In this document: positions 14,850-50,710 of the stretch, piece by piece
How positions within the stretch are numbered: the stretch's first letter is position 1
How the letters are laid out: every line of letters begins with the position of its first letter
Origin: Lishizhenia tianjinensis
GTDB lineage: Bacteria; Bacteroidota; Bacteroidia; Flavobacteriales_D; Crocinitomicaceae
NCBI RefSeq assembly: GCF_900116425.1
Contig: NZ_FPAS01000002.1
Span: 80,537-144,536 of the forward strand
Length of the DNA stretch: 64,000 bases
Direction: 5' to 3'
Made by a program: the position numbers and the translations under genes
The notes under the pieces: model-generated
Database searches by the model: none
What the model was told of the DNA's origin: nothing
Seen by the model: only the letters and a program-made list of their open reading frames with translations

Positions 14850-14950
14850 TTTTATTGAAGAGATTTTATCCTGAAGTGATGTTTTAGAAATAAGCCTTTA
14901 TCTCAATACTCTTATCTCACACTCGATTCTGTTTTAAGTGGAGGTGTCAA

Positions 14951-14992
14951 TCTTTGAATCCTCGAATCCTTGAATTTTTGAATTTTTCAATC
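14951..14992. repeat. 9-bp TTGAATCNT array before ileS
   Basis: About four degenerate copies of the TTGAATCCT word followed by a C-rich run (14996-15010). The array ends about 40 bases before the ileS -7 element. Confidence 0.75.
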
Positions 14993-15030
14993 TTCCCGCC
15001 CCCCTATCCTCCCTAATTCCATGAATTCCT

Positions 15031-15038
15031 TATTTTTG
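15031..15038 (+). promoter_or_regulatory. ileS -7 promoter element
   Basis: TATTTTTG, an exact TAnnTTTG match, 27 bases before the ATG at 15066. It lies inside the alternative 15021 reading and so rules out that longer start. Confidence 0.55.
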
Positions 15039-18545: not shown

Positions 18546-18548
18546 GCT

Positions 18549-18611
18549 TAAATCTTTGAATTCTTGAATCCTTGAATCCTTGAATTATTGAATTCTTGAA
18601 TCCCTGAATCG
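18549..18611. repeat. 9-bp TTGAATCNT array after ileS
   Basis: About seven degenerate 9-bp copies (TTGAATTCT, TTGAATCCT, TTGAATTAT), directly after the ileS terminator and followed by GCCCCG. Confidence 0.85.
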
Positions 18612-18631
18612 CCCCGTCTAGCGCTCTAAGA

Positions 18632-20021: not shown

Positions 20022-20120
20022 GAACCTCCTTGAATCCTTGAATTGTTGAATTGTTGAATCTTCGAATCATTGAATCATTGAATTCTTGAATCGTTGAATC
20101 ATCGAATCGTTGAATCCTTG
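20022..20120. repeat. Longest 9-bp TTGAATCNT array
   Basis: About ten to eleven degenerate copies (TTGAATCCT, TTGAATTGT, TCGAATCAT, TTGAATCGT) in phase, ending in a run of six C. It fills the gap between divergent genes and stops about 20 bases before the likely GNAT promoter. Confidence 0.9.
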
Positions 20121-34408: not shown

Positions 34409-34895
34409 ATAAGGATTCTTATCATAGCTTAAAAAAGACAAGATTTATTTGGTTTCGCAGACGGTTAGACCTATAGATTCTTAGACTTTTAGAGTGGTTA
34501 GGGTTAACAGATTTAAAAATTTAAGCATGAACTGCGTTCATATTTAAAAATTTAAAAAAGATGAACTGCTCATCAGGATGGGAAGTATAACCTAAATCTA
34601 TGAATACTCGAAACCTTGATACCATTTCATTAAATCTTTAAATATCAGGCGTAAGCCTGAACTTAAATTTTTAAATATTCCACCGGTAGCTATCGCTTGA
34701 TTATACCGCAGGAAGGCAAAACAATATAAAAAACACTCTTCCTTTTAACAACGCGTCTTTACAACATCTCAAATCCTTGAATTAAGGTTCTCAATCGATA
34801 ATAGAGAGATGAATTTTTGAATCCTTGAATCTTTGAATCCTTGAATTATTGAATCCTTGAATTATTGAATCTTTGAATTGTTGAATCCTTAAATC
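34409..34895. other. Repeat-rich gap upstream of gatC
   Basis: No credible gene. The gap holds TTAGAC-word runs (34460-34500), several AT-palindromes such as TTAAATTTTTAAAT and ATTTAAAAATTTAAA (34510-34680), a short GC-richer stretch at 34683-34715, and a 9-bp TTGAATCNT array at 34810-34890 that ends right at the stop of the acyltransferase gene. Confidence 0.55.
34810..34890. repeat. 9-bp TTGAATCNT array
   Basis: About nine in-phase degenerate copies (TTGAATCCT, TTGAATCTT, TTGAATTAT, TTGAATTGT), ending within 6 bases of the minus-strand stop at 34896. Confidence 0.9.
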
Positions 34896-36542: not shown

Positions 36543-36625
36543 GTCCTTGAATCTTTGAATTCTTGAATCATTGAATCCTTGAATCCTTTAATAGTTGAAT
36601 TGTTGAATCTTTGAATCGTTGACTC
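36543..36625. repeat. 9-bp TTGAATCNT array upstream of sdhC
   Basis: About nine in-phase degenerate copies (TTGAATCTT, TTGAATTCT, TTGAATCAT, TTGAATCCT), followed by a C-rich stretch (36638-36650). It sits between the divergent membrane-protein gene and the sdh operon. Confidence 0.9.
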
Positions 36626-37458: not shown

Positions 37459-39459
37459 ATGGCAATATTAGATTCAAAAGTACCAAAGGGTCCAATTAAA
37501 ACGAAGTGGACTGATTACAAGAACAAAATTAATTTGGTAAACCCAGCAAACAAGCGTTTGATTGACGTTATTGTTGTTGGAACTGGATTGGCTGGTGGTT
37601 CTGCTGCAGCTACTTTGGCTGAGTTAGGATACAACGTAAAAGCATTCGCTTTCCAAGATTCACCACGTAGAGCGCACTCTATTGCAGCGCAAGGAGGTAT
37701 CAACGCCGCTAAAAACTACCAAGGTGATGGTGACTCAACTTACCGTTTATTTTACGATACGGTTAAAGGGGGTGACTACCGTTCTAGAGAAGCAAACGTA
37801 TATCGTTTAGCAGAAGTTTCTGCAAACATTATAGACCAGTGTGTAGCACAAGGTGTACCATTCGCACGTGATTACGGAGGGTTATTGGATAACCGTTCTT
37901 TCGGTGGGGTATTGGTATCTCGTACCTTCTACGCAAAAGGTCAAACAGGTCAACAGTTATTATTAGGAGCTTACTCTGCATTGAACAGACAAATCGGTAG
38001 AGGTAAAGTGAAAATGTACAACCGTCACGAAATGATGGATGTAGTTATTGTTGACGGAAAAGCAAGAGGAATTATTGCTCGTAACTTGGTTACAGGAGAA
38101 TTAGAGAAGCATTCAGCACACGCTGTAGTTTTAGGAACAGGTGGTTACGGTAACGTATTCTTCCTTTCTACAAACGCAATGGGATCTAACGTTTCTGCAG
38201 CTTGGAAAGCACACAAAAAAGGAGCTTTCTTCGCGAACCCATGTTACACACAAATTCACCCAACATGTATCCCAGTTTCTGGAGATCACCAATCTAAATT
38301 GACATTGATGTCTGAGTCGTTAAGAAACGATGGTAGAATTTGGGTTCCTAAGAAAATGGAAGATGTTGAAGCGATTAGAGCTGGTAAATTAAAACCAACA
38401 CAAATTGCTGAAGGAGATAGAGATTACTACTTAGAAAGAAGATACCCTGCATTCGGTAACTTAGTACCACGTGATGTTGCCTCTAGAGCAGCAAAAGAAA
38501 GATGTGATGCTGGTTACGGTGTGAATGCAACAGGAGAAGCAGTTTACTTAGACTTCTCATCTGCTATTCAACGTTACGGAAAAGAGCAAGCAATCGTGAA
38601 GCACTTAGACGTAAACGATAAAGCATTAGTAACACAATTAGGTAAAGACGTAGTTAAGGCGAAATACGGAAACTTATTCCAAATGTATGAGAAGATCGTT
38701 GACGAGAACCCATACGAAACGCCAATGATGATTTATCCAGCAGTTCACTACACTATGGGTGGATTATGGGTAGATTACAACTTGATGACAACTGTACCAG
38801 GTTTATACGCGATTGGAGAGGCGAACTTCTCAGATCACGGAGCAAACAGATTGGGAGCATCTGCATTGATGCAAGGTTTGGCGGATGGTTACTTCGTATT
38901 GCCTTACACAATCGGAGACTACTTATCTCAAGATATTAGAACAGGAGCTATTTCTACAGAAACGAAAGAGTTCGACGAAGCATTGAAAGCGGTGGAAGAC
39001 CAAATCAACAAATTCGTGAACAACAACGGTTCTCAGTCGGTTGACTACTTCCACAAGAAGTTAGGAAAAATCATGTGGAACAAAGTAGGTATGGCTAGAA
39101 ACGAGCAAGGACTTAAAGAAGCAATCGAAGAGATTTCTGCTTTAAGAGCTGAATTCTACAAAGAAGTTCGTGTTCCAGGTGGAGCTAACGAATTTAACGA
39201 GGAATTAGCAAAAGCTTGTAGAGTTGCCGACTTCTTAGAGTTAGGAGAATTGTTCGCTAAAGATGCATTACACAGAAACGAATCTTGTGGAGGTCACTTT
39301 AGAGAGGAGTACCAAACAGAAGAAGGAGAAGCATTAAGACAACCGGAATTCCAATATGTAGCAGCTTGGGAATACAAAGGTGAGCCTAAAGATGCAGTTA
39401 TGCACAAGGAAGACTTAGTGTTCGAAGATATCGAAGTAAAAGAGAGAAGTTATAAATAG
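37459..39459 (+). CDS. sdhA: Succinate dehydrogenase/fumarate reductase flavoprotein subunit
   Basis: 666 residues. Oxidises succinate to fumarate using covalently bound FAD. The dinucleotide motif [15 protein letters not shown] lies near residues 42-56. The FAD-linking His lies in [12 protein letters not shown], and substrate residues in CYTQIHPTC and in HYTMGGLW. Length fits the Bacteroidota b558-type enzyme. It is normally followed at once by sdhB, but here a four-helix-bundle gene and repeats intervene (39460-39912). Confidence 0.97.
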
Positions 39460-39465
39460 TGATTG

Positions 39466-39489
39466 GTGATAAGTGATAAGTCAAAAGTG
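39466..39489. repeat. Left flank repeat of the four-helix-bundle insert
   Basis: Built of GTGATAAGTGATAAGTC and CAAAAGTG. An inverted, slightly longer relative lies at 39883-39906. It starts 7 bases after the sdhA stop. Confidence 0.75.
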
Positions 39490-39497
39490 ATTTAGAA

Positions 39498-39860
39498 TTG
39501 GGTGAAATTAAGTCATACAAAGATTTAAAAGTTTGGCAGAAAGGAATACAAATCGTTAAGTTGGTTTACATCCTTACAGAACAGATTTCAGAATCAGAAA
39601 AGTATAATTTAAAGTCACAAATCAAAAGAAGTGCAACTTCTATCTCCTCGAATATTGCTGAGGGTTATGGTAGAGAAAGTACAACAGACTTTTGTAGATT
39701 CTTAAGAAACGCTAGAGGCTCTCTCTTTGAACTTGAAACACAATTGATAATTATTAAAGAAGTAGGTCTGAATTTTAATGAAGTTGTAATGACAGATTTG
39801 GAAGGCCTACTTGAAGAAGAAAATAAGATGTTAAATGCCTTATTAAAGTCTCTAAAGTAA
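39498..39860 (+). CDS. Four-helix-bundle protein (S23/23S rRNA intervening-sequence family)
   Basis: 120 residues with the family landmarks: SYKDLKVWQKG at the start, SQIKRSATSISSNIAEG in the middle, FCRFLRNARGSLFELETQL, and a C-terminal helix. Relatives are encoded in intervening sequences of some 23S rRNA genes and as free-standing genes in many Bacteroidota; they form pentameric helical bundles, and their cellular role is not established. The only in-frame start is TTG at 39498. It sits between sdhA and sdhB in the same direction, inside inverted repeats, which looks like an insertion. Confidence 0.88.
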   Translation: MGEIKSYKDLKVWQKGIQIVKLVYILTEQISESEKYNLKSQIKRSATSISSNIAEGYGRESTTDFCRFLRNARGSLFELETQLIIIKEVGLNFNEVVMTDLEGLLEEENKMLNALLKSLK

Positions 39861-39882
39861 GTAAACGAGTTACGAGTCTTAT

Positions 39883-39906
39883 GACTTATCACTCTTCACT
39901 TATCAC
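39883..39906. repeat. Right flank repeat of the four-helix-bundle insert
   Basis: Its reverse complement reads GTGATAAGTGAAGAG then TGATAAGTC, matching the left flank at 39466-39482 with one extra 7-base word. Confidence 0.75.
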
Positions 39907-39935
39907 ATGAGCCGAAGGCGAAATAACTAAAAAAG

Positions 39936-40682
39936 ATGAATCTTAATTTAAAAATTTGGCGTCAAAAGAATAGTAATGATAAAGGTGGAATGCACAGCTA
40001 CCAAATTAGCGATGTATCTCCAGACATGTCATTCTTAGAAATGTTGGATGTTTTAAACCAACAATTAAACGATAAAGGTGAAGAGCCTATTGCTTTTGAC
40101 CACGACTGTAGAGAAGGTATTTGTGGAATGTGTTCATTACAAATTAATGGTGAACCACACGGACCAGATAGAGGTGTAACTACGTGTCAGTTGCACATGC
40201 GTAAATTCAACGATGGAGATACAATTTACATTGAGCCATTTAGAGCGAAAGCTTTTCCTGTAATCAAGGATTTGGTAGTAGATAGATCTGCATTCGATAG
40301 AATTCAGCACGCAGGTGGTTTCGTTTCTGTAAACACTTCTGGTAATACACAAGATGCAAACGCAATTCCTATTCCTAAGGCTGATGCTGACAAAGCATTC
40401 GACGCGGCGACGTGTATTGGATGTGGAGCATGTGTTGCTTCATGTAAAAACGCTTCTGCTATGTTATATGTTTCTGCAAAAGTTTCTCAGTTTGCTTTGT
40501 TGCCACAAGGTAAAGTTGAAGCGAAAGACAGAGTATTGAACATGGTGAAAGCTATGGATGAAGAAGGATTCGGTAACTGTACAAATACAGGAGCATGTGA
40601 AGTAGAGTGTCCAAAAGGAATCTCTTTAGAAAACATCGCTCGTATGAACAGAGAATACCTTTCTGCTTCATTGAAGAAATAA
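39936..40682 (+). CDS. sdhB: Succinate dehydrogenase iron-sulfur subunit
   Basis: 248 residues. Carries electrons from the SdhA FAD to the membrane heme and quinone. The [2Fe-2S] ligands are Cys58, Cys63, Cys66 and Cys84 (CREGICGMC). The second domain has [11 protein letters not shown] (Cys160-Cys170) and a further Cys set at 215, 221 and 225 for the 4Fe and 3Fe clusters. Third core gene of the operon, ending in a strong terminator. Its distance from sdhA (476 bases) is unusual and is explained by the inserted four-helix-bundle gene. Confidence 0.96.
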
Positions 40683-40739: not shown

Positions 40740-40752
40740 TGTTTATTTGGGA

Positions 40753-40783
40753 GTGATAAGTGACTAGAGATAAGTCAAAAGTG
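40753..40783. repeat. Solo copy of the GATAAGTCAAAAGTG word
   Basis: GTGATAAGTGACTAGAGATAAG then TCAAAAGTG: the same word as the left flank of the four-helix-bundle insert, without any gene, just after the sdh terminator. The rest of the gap to 41020 holds an inverted repeat pairing TTGACCTTTTA (about 40929) with TAAAGGTCAA (about 40986) and no gene. Confidence 0.7.
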
Positions 40784-49190: not shown

Positions 49191-49763
49191 TTATGCTTTG
49201 ATGAATGCCCCAACTAATTTCTCTGCTTCTTCCAAAGCATGCTCTAGGTTGTCATTCACTAAAATATGATCAAATTCTGGCGCGTAAGAAAGCTCTTCTC
49301 TGGCTTTCGACATACGTTGGTTGATCTTCTCTTCACTTTCTGTACTTCTGTAGCGCAAACGCTTCTCTAATTCATCGTAAGAAGGGGGTTGAACGAAGAT
49401 GGCCAAAGCTTTGTCACCAAAGTATTTCTTCAAGTTCAATCCTCCAATAACATCTACGTCAAAAATTACGGTTTTACCTTCGTTCCAAATGCGTTCGATT
49501 TCGCTTTTCAAGGTTCCGTAGTAATTGTTGGTGTAAACTTCTTCCCACTCTAAAAAGGCATTGTCTAAAATTGCTTGTTGAAATTTTGCCAATCCTAAAA
49601 AGTGGTAATCTTTCCCATCCACTTCATTGGGTCTAGGATCTCTAGAACACGCCGAAATAGAAAAAGATAAACCTAAATCTTGTTTCAATAAATGTTGTAC
49701 GATGGTCGTTTTCCCTGCTCCAGATGGCGCTGAGAATATGATGCATTTTCCTTCTTTGTTCAT
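49191..49763 (-). CDS. gmk: Guanylate kinase
   Basis: 190 residues. Phosphorylates GMP to GDP with ATP. The P-loop SAPSGAGKTT is at residues 11-20, and the GMP-binding part is seen in SISACSRDPRPNEVDGKDYHFL. The lid and C-terminal helix are present. Neighbours yicC and nadD are the usual partners of gmk in Bacteroidota. Confidence 0.96.
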   Translation of the reverse strand: MNKEGKCIIFSAPSGAGKTTIVQHLLKQDLGLSFSISACSRDPRPNEVDGKDYHFLGLAKFQQAILDNAFLEWEEVYTNNYYGTLKSEIERIWNEGKTVIFDVDVIGGLNLKKYFGDKALAIFVQPPSYDELEKRLRYRSTESEEKINQRMSKAREELSYAPEFDHILVNDNLEHALEEAEKLVGAFIKA

Positions 49764-49840
49764 TCTGTACTAATTAAGAATGAAGAATACAGAATTAAGA
49801 ATATTGGCTAATTCTTAACTCTTAATTCTAAATTCTGAAT
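49764..49840. repeat. Imperfect inverted repeat of AATTAAGAAT words between yicC and gmk
   Basis: The left arm ATTAAGAATGAAGAATACAG and following bases pair with the right arm ATTCTTAACTCTTAATTCTA around TTGGCTA. This AT-rich word repeat is the longest spacer in an otherwise tight gene run. Confidence 0.65.
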
Positions 49841-50710
49841 TTAAAGTGTGTTTAACACTTGTTCTTTAATCTTCTCTAAATTATCTTTCATGTTCACTAC
49901 GATTTTCTGTAAATCAACATGGTAAGATTTACTTCCTAGGGTATTGATTTCTCTACCAATTTCTTGAGAGATGAAACCTAATTTTTTACCCACAGGAATG
50001 TCTGATTGGTTCATGGTTTCTATGAAGTAATCCAAGTGGTTGGCCAACCTTACTTTTTCTTCAGAAACATCCAATTTTTCGATGTAATAGATCAACTCTT
50101 GTTCAAATCTGTTCTCATCTATGCTTTGTGCATTGTTGTCTTCAAAACCTTTACGCATACGCTCTTTGATGATGTCTATACGTAAATCTTCGTACTTCGG
50201 AACTTCATCTAACAAGGTTTTGATGGTCGTAATTCTATCCGTAAAATCTTGGGCCAATGAAACACCTTCTTGAGCTCTAAAATCAACCAATTTTTGTAAA
50301 GCTTCATCTAATAACTCCATCAAGTAGTTACTTTCTTCTTCGCTTAATTCTTCGGTTTGGTTAATGTAGATTTCTGGCATGCGCAATACCATAGGCAAGA
50401 GGTCTTGCTCTTCTTCTAAGTCGGCAGACAATTGCTTTAAATCTTTGTAATAAGCCTTGGCCAAAGCTTGGTTAATGACATAGTTTGCCGTAGCTCCGGT
50501 GTTTTCTATGTTAATGCTTAACTCTGTTTTACCACGGTCTAAAACTTGACCTACTTTCTTACGTAGCTCTAATTCTAGCGGTTTGTAAAGTGGTGCTATA
50601 CGCGCAGTTAAATCTAAATTCTTGCTGTTTAAAGAACGAACTTCAACAACAATTTTTTTATCCTTATAATTTCCTGTGGCTTTTCCGTAGCCTGTCATGG
50701 ATTGAAGCAT
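49841..50710 (-). CDS. YicC/YloC family endoribonuclease
   Basis: 289 residues with the family start MLQSMTGYGKA and end DIPVGKKLGFISQEIGREINTLGSKS, both hallmarks of YicC. Members are metal-dependent RNases that affect small-RNA and mRNA turnover. Starts 9 bases after the EamA transporter gene and precedes gmk, a common order. Confidence 0.94.
   Translation of the reverse strand: MLQSMTGYGKATGNYKDKKIVVEVRSLNSKNLDLTARIAPLYKPLELELRKKVGQVLDRGKTELSINIENTGATANYVINQALAKAYYKDLKQLSADLEEEQDLLPMVLRMPEIYINQTEELSEEESNYLMELLDEALQKLVDFRAQEGVSLAQDFTDRITTIKTLLDEVPKYEDLRIDIIKERMRKGFEDNNAQSIDENRFEQELIYYIEKLDVSEEKVRLANHLDYFIETMNQSDIPVGKKLGFISQEIGREINTLGSKSYHVDLQKIVVNMKDNLEKIKEQVLNTL

Follow-up and report, generated by a model that had tools for sequence, protein, structure and literature searches.

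Anatomy of the sdhA-sdhB gap

The window, by which we mean the whole stretch of 64,000 nucleotides of Lishizhenia tianjinensis DNA analysed here (contig NZ_FPAS01000002.1), carries an S23 gene between sdhA and sdhB. The former ends at 39459 and the latter starts at 39936, which leaves a gap of 476 nt. The features in and around this gap are:

37459..39459, + strand: sdhA, host gene upstream of the cassette (FAD_binding_2, Succ_DH_flav_C)
39459..39491, + strand: left word arm (sequence; inverted repeat with the right arm; pairs in the predicted RNA fold)
39498..39860, + strand: gene for an S23 or 23S rRNA-intervening-sequence protein (four-helix bundle), 120 aa, TTG start (profiles; relatives 2GSC, 2RLD)
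39877..39908, + strand: right word arm, related to the left arm in inverted orientation (sequence, word count, inverted repeat, predicted RNA fold)
39936..40682, + strand: sdhB, host gene downstream of the cassette (Fer2_3, Fer4)
40752..40783, + strand, left-arm orientation: gene-less array of the cassette's words, just 3' of sdhB (word count, alignment)

The open reading frame matches PF05635 with E 6e-34 and 116.9 bits (cut-off 33.8) and TIGR02436 with 113.7 bits (cut-off 24), which places it in the S23 family by the curated profile cut-offs. Relatives by sequence with a solved structure are 2GSC and 2RLD, and the TTG start agrees with relatives beginning ATGGGTGAAATAAAATCA. An earlier note on this DNA had described a 476-nt spacing with an S23-family gene of TTG start, and the gap coordinates and both profile matches confirm it.

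The left arm reads as the heptamers GTGATTG, GTGATAA, GTGATAA and GTCAAAA followed by GTGAT, and overlaps the end of the sdhA stop codon by a single base. Seven sites of GTGATAAGTGATAAG (at most two mismatches) are present in the window, six of them within the two arms; shuffling gives an expectation of 0.27, and seven sites are reached in none of 100 shuffles. The arms are 83% complementary across 29 nt (39459-39487 and 39878-39906). The repeat words and their inverted relative that the earlier note saw on either side of the gene are thus borne out by both the complementarity and the word count. Absent from that note is the array at 40752-40783, which has 84% identity to the left arm. In the predicted RNA fold, whose stability none of 100 shuffles reaches (z -2.7), the two arms pair at the base and enclose the gene.

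By length, the open reading frames of at least 60 aa between the arms are the S23 gene and an antisense frame of 75 aa (39665-39892), and no transposase is recognisable among them. Inspection of the window element by eye gives no evident target-site duplication. A phage origin was considered and rejected: tblastn (1e-5) finds no match among 50,697 phage records.

Inverted word arms around S23 genes

Two sets of S23 loci were compared. The order-level set consists of S23 genes from relatives, taken in E-value order among the matches listed and chosen blind to their flanks; some loci with internal stops were left out and ten sdh-site elements were added by a separate route. Its 111 profile matches yield 104 elements after an E-value and duplicate filter, of which 99 have full flanks. 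The many-phyla set contains S23 loci of named genomes, the best 80 of 562 relatives. It leans to the sdh branch because the query consisted of sdh-gap proteins, and it includes many metagenome bins, which may be mislabelled. The many-phyla arm test covers 80 of 86 parsed elements and the control-gene test 177 of 190.

For the 99 order-level elements, the left flank scores on average 18.1 against the reverse complement of its own right flank, compared to 11.6 (sd 0.27) after permutation, with a maximum of 12.7 in 2000 permutations. In single elements the match is often modest: own pairs exceed the 99th percentile of swapped ones in just 19, and in 27 the element's own right arm is the best-scoring partner. 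The 80 many-phyla elements give 20.2 for own pairs against 10.9 (sd 0.33) when permuted. Clear arms are found in records labelled Clostridia (L240, L247), Planctomycetota (L223), Campylobacteraceae (L228), Chloroploca (L209), Patescibacteria (L197, L239) and Desulfosarcina (L199); some many-phyla loci have none, for example L225 (Acidobacteria).

It might be argued that AT-rich intergenic repeats merely resemble inverted arms by chance, and the arm match of the window element (just 83% over 29 nt) would by itself fit such an explanation. Control genes already refute it, however. An inverted arm score of at least 17 is reached by 110 of 177 S23 genes against 17 of 177 control genes of the same loci (direct, non-inverted matches are likewise raised, 38 against 14). 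Neither the permutation results nor the uniform polarity and period agree with chance, which we consider a negligible explanation. Among 120 arms of score at least 16 the best period is 7 in 57 (and 14 in another 26) and 8 in 25 (15 in another 8), and on the left strand G exceeds C in 113 and C exceeds G in 6. The words themselves vary from element to element. PF05635 'four helix bundle' genes are found across many phyla (among the best 80 of 562 relatives), and a gene between inverted matching arms is the general design of S23 loci.

Operon setting and history at the junctions

Of 168 cassettes, 137 lie in sense between two codirectional genes, and another 12 have such neighbours but run antisense to them; for control genes, two codirectional neighbours are seen in 309 of 542 cases (57%). 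This placement supports the claim that the cassettes occupy transcribed gaps of operons. The junctions most often seen among 173 elements with both neighbours are sdhA-sdhB (21), a 3-hydroxyacyl-CoA-dehydrogenase-like gene followed by thiolase (17), sufB-sufC (7) and gmk-nadD (5), where orthologs sharing one junction are not independent events. The gene names other than sdh are those that we presume from the translated neighbours.

The sdhA-sdhB gap was compared over 50 loci including the window, 49 of them readable. S23 genes are present in 12, each with its own words (one of them, L063, is truncated and was identified by eye). The remaining gaps are short (1 to 123 nt), except in L055 (G013), where a different gene pair takes the place of S23 and no obvious word arms are seen by eye. 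We take this pair to be nucleotidyltransferase/HEPN-like.

In an IQ-TREE phylogeny of 120 rows, a single group (SH-aLRT 87, where the program stars at 95) takes in 20 of the 21 sdh-site S23 proteins, with the gmk-site proteins nested inside it. Both this tree and a FastTree of 190 rows have few columns and many open forks, and the latter gives more changes of site label (sdh 8, thiolase site 14) than IQ-TREE (4 and 13). In the 120-row tree the label changes 4 times for sdh (21 rows; 19.7 when shuffled), once for gmk (5.0) and 3 times for suf (6.9). Given the site group, sdh-site S23 genes seem mostly resident, with losses and rare moves, and judged from these sequences the window cassette is probably an old resident of its junction rather than a recent arrival. 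A recent insertion is disfavoured by the same group. As an argument against mobility, the earlier note had named the conservation of the same gene and flanks in place across distant genera. For the gene this argument applies in part, most sdh-site proteins of the order being one group; for the flanks it does not, their words differing between the relatives compared. Sdh-site words turn over and are not inherited unchanged, with the two arms remaining alike.

These data bear on an alternative in which S23 is a vertically kept, resident operon gene and the arms are fast-evolving UTR repeats, shaped by slippage and gene conversion, with no mobility involved. Clustering by junction at three sites (sdh, gmk and suf) would be expected under it. 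On the other hand, thiolase-site proteins hardly cluster (13 changes against 16.3 on shuffling), a sign that S23 arrived at that site several times; L037, although at the sdh site, pairs with thiolase-site S23 instead (support 89); and presence in the sdhA-sdhB gaps is patchy.

Joint drift of the arms

A sample of Flavobacterium, the genus of G061 (L173, Flavobacterium resistens), has the S23 clade in 35 of 121 genomes at the threshold used. For 34 elements, the score between the left arm of one element and the right arm of another decreases from 18.8 to 17.5, 14.2 and 12.0 with falling S23 identity; within elements the score stays at 17-18. Where S23 proteins from different genomes are at least 0.6 identical, their words match at a score of 17.1 (39 pairs, not independent). 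Paralogs of one genome reach 10.3 (n=122) at a baseline of 10.1 (n=4889), and words specific to the genome rather than to the element are therefore unsupported.

Four members of the clade occupy other junctions (L172, L341, L346 and L349, the junction of L349 being read by eye) and carry the clade words, scoring 16-18 where other S23 of the genus score 9-10. L172 and L341 occupy one site and may represent one event. The clade members at the sdh site have drifted in their words (L355 13.3; L356, L358 and L359 10.6-11.4). Since the clade words persist in members found elsewhere, gene and arms seem to travel together, though the weak resolution of the Flavobacterium tree (stars on 2 of 32 inner branches; 6 changes of site label) leaves the direction of these relocations unpolarised. 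A separate observation concerns one genus in which S23 cassettes with the same downstream gene (by eye) use two vocabularies, CTTAG words in L390-L394 and L402 and CCTTTG words in L396, L397, L399, L400, L406, L408 and L413.

The S23 protein itself is under purifying selection (median dN/dS 0.07, maximum 0.24 in 64 pairs; median dS 0.92). This low ratio also fits a resident gene, and the joint drift of the arms could be due to gene conversion between inverted repeats; joint inheritance alone would equally make words follow the S23 lineage. What a resident gene does not readily account for is one clade at several junctions with its words kept, nor the arms of the same kind around the unrelated GxxExxY family described below. 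Overall, we regard the resident gene as an unlikely explanation, though one to be taken seriously. Because the arms drift jointly, the words track the S23 protein and the clade words are kept, gene and arms appear to be one unit. The mobile cassette of about 450 bp put forward in the earlier note thus survives in part: own-pair matching and clade words at other junctions support the arms as its ends, but a fresh insertion at sdhA-sdhB is not favoured, given that most S23 there belong to a single site group spanning the order.

Word arrays apart from the S23 gene

Scanning 464 kb of the host contig, 536 bases of it unread, yields 67 merged arrays of period 7 or 8 above score 14, cassette arms included, and the shuffled contig gives 2, counted before merging. 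The host arrays comprise several vocabularies, and 61 of 68 are without inverted partner in a test with a high threshold for the commonest words. Of the seven S23 cassettes in the host genome, six have their own words elsewhere in a 400-kb sample. Over all sampled genomes, cassette words give 27 matches in the own genome (4.8 per Mb per element), of which at least one (L004) is the element's own flank, and 25 in other genomes (0.35), 21 of them due to elements of the single genome G005; just 4 of 14 genomes have cassette words elsewhere in their own sample. Arrays of score at least 16 number 60 in 1158 kb of 14 S23-bearing genomes (42 in the host, none in 6 of the 14) and 0 in 431 kb of 7 S23-free genomes (1 at score 14). 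This contrast (one-sided p 0.009 per genome) depends largely on the host and G053, and some of the arrays in G018 and G012 are merely AT-rich.

Several further arrays can be pointed out in and near the window. Gene-less arrays of 8-nt TTGAATCN words lie at 36544-36625, 34810-34895, 20027-20120, 18548-18628 and 14945-15035; this is the commonest word family in the scanned host stretch, with related words at the S23 cassette L006 in another part of the genome. A gene-less inverted hairpin of AATTAAG-type words at 49738-49841 resembles a cassette lacking its gene. The vocabulary of an 8-nt CTAGA word array at 1525-1687 also flanks the S23 gene at the host thiolase junction (L002). Just outside the window, L253 (G000:C8:72300-75982) holds several GTGATAAGTGAAAAGTGA arrays, three of them at a spacing of about 390 nt.

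At gmk-nadD, 30 Flavobacterium loci comprise 8 with an S23 cassette, 4 with another gene, 1 with gmk missing upstream and 17 with a short gap, so that closely related species differ at this junction in whether the cassette is present. The short gaps are inverted hairpins in 16 of 17 cases, above all 300 shuffles and mostly of CAGAGATTCGCAAAG-type words. Compared to arms of GxxExxY (PF13366) genes, three of these hairpins score at best 16.5-20.5 (mean 10.2); compared to S23 arms they score at best 10-11.5 (mean 7.6-8.0). For Flavobacterium columnare, a published table of phage elements (PMC5524665) has entries for guanylate kinase, four helix bundle protein and a nicotinate-nucleotide adenylyltransferase next to one another, which is the gmk-nadD arrangement found here.

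GxxExxY genes have inverted word arms of their own. In 29 of 30 loci (L433, without open frame, was excluded) the arms score 22.9 against 13.6 when permuted (sd 0.89), with at least 17 in 18 loci and at most 12 in 7. S23 and PF13366 genes are both present in 13 of 13 hairpin-group genomes searched. PF13366 is found in none of 5 S23-free relatives, and is also absent from the S23-bearing G004, G037 and G053. In the host genome, L426 (G000:C2:97184-97534) is a GxxExxY gene between inverted GGCACAAAG-type word arms. The architecture common to S23 and GxxExxY suggests that operon gaps harbour a class of mobile or semi-mobile units so far overlooked.

One end design around two unrelated gene families could also mean that S23, GxxExxY and other small genes are passive cargo, lying between ends that are moved in trans, with S23 idle in mobility. 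The gene-less hairpins in the short gmk-nadD gaps, where the three compared resemble GxxExxY arm words, point in this direction. Nonetheless, words track the S23 protein, the sampled S23-free genomes are without arrays, and the host genome (99.99% complete) has no match to RVT_1 (PF00078) and none to Y1_Tnp (PF01797) at E <= 0.001, though another enzyme is possible. Passive cargo thus seems to us quite improbable. Mobility driven by a reverse transcriptase with Avd was likewise rejected, the host genome being without RVT_1 match.

A proposed S23 word-array cassette

The explanation we favour, and hold to be somewhat better than even, is an S23 word-array cassette: a gene with two inverted arms of degenerate 7- or 8-nt words that is heritable and occasionally relocates in operon gaps. 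What comparison at the level of sequence has shown in its favour is the anatomy across many phyla, apparent joint drift of the arms, words that follow the lineage, occurrence at several junctions, sense orientation and purifying selection. The cassette looks mobile, without a recognisable transposase; the sequences compared show neither a transposition event nor a target duplication or an intermediate.

As to the mechanism, an S23 oligomer may bind its own words, in RNA or DNA, and may need them for transfer or upkeep, in which case protein and words would coevolve much as RAYTs do with REPs. The arms would pair within the operon transcript, and double-strand cleavage (by RNase III, as in the 23S rRNA intervening sequence) could free the S23 message with sdhA and sdhB still being made. 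Tests on pairing give a mixed outcome. Mismatches between arms are of G-U type and A-C type in 274 and 261 cases and, in a second comparison, in 172 and 149; swapped pairs give 2572 and 2890, a slight G-U lean for own arms (p 0.02-0.07, pairs not independent). Within one vocabulary, own arms do not score above swapped ones (p 0.44 by alignment, 0.055 by duplex energy). A word-order test (22.5 against 16.7 after word shuffling) is biased by the choice of best alignment and was set aside.

Papers bearing on PF05635 'four helix bundle' genes report, in the parts available, no known function. A gene with inverted arms and words that follow the protein ties these genes and the 23S rRNA intervening sequences to one type of unit, and the general anatomy of S23 loci makes word binding, transcript cutting and joint movement of gene and arms directly testable. 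It is tempting to go further and propose pan-bacterial, transposase-free micro-elements in which the gene for a small protein (S23 or nuclease-like GxxExxY) lies between inverted arrays of 7-9-nt words; the protein would recognise these words as its own and spread them through the genome, with or without the gene, into operon gaps, and the 23S intervening sequences would be ribosomal members. This extension is tentative, and we think it more doubtful than the cassette itself.

Comparison with known systems

REPIN/RAYT systems, as described in the accessible part of PMC3116915, resemble the cassettes in having inverted short-word ends, a word group per gene, gene-less copies and an extragenic location. 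They differ in that S23 is no tyrosine transposase and the words form degenerate 7-8-nt arrays. Membership of REPINs was rejected because the Y1_Tnp match is missing from the host genome and most host arrays are unpaired (61 of 68). On pairing the gene-less units give a mixed picture, since 16 of 17 short gmk-nadD gaps in Flavobacterium are inverted hairpins.

Tandem 7-mers in intergenic DNA, like those of the cassette arms, are known from heptamer direct repeats. TAACTGA repeats are reported for Beggiatoaceae, Cyanobacteria and five Bacteroidetes (extract of PMC4679880), and intergenic heptamer repeats also for Geobacter (extract of PMC2700814). Unlike the cassettes, these are described in the extracts without a link to S23 or to a gene enclosed by paired inverted arms, and the terms 'S23' and 'four helix' are absent from the main text of PMC4679880. 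PF05635 is further stated to resemble Avd of diversity-generating retroelements (PMC10053308, in part), from which the window host differs by having no RVT_1 match in its genome. For CPR bacteria, S23 frames within rRNA insertions are noted in the available section of PMC11270868. A literature search that scarcely covered subscription journals and preprints found no work linking word arms with S23 in protein operons. S23 intervening sequences, heptamer arrays and REPIN/RAYT pairs are each known apart, and joining them may be new.

The closest known system is the S23-bearing 23S rRNA intervening sequence. That of Coxiella, according to the excerpt at hand of PMC4990558, has complementary ends and, before the S23 frame, two or three tandem heptamers depending on the strain; it is excised by RNase III in vitro and its protein is seemingly untranslated, and the function and origin of such sequences are called unclear there. 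Like the window cassette, 23S intervening sequences combine an S23 frame with complementary, stem-forming ends (for the window, as predicted), and in Coxiella and the cassettes alike tandem heptamers stand directly 5' of the frame and the distribution is patchy. The cassette, in contrast, lies between protein genes of an operon (sdhA and sdhB) and not inside an rRNA gene; in the set tested S23 is under purifying selection, and the arms are element-specific and drift in concert. By analogy, the window cassette is best described as a probable protein-gene counterpart of the S23-bearing 23S rRNA intervening sequence.
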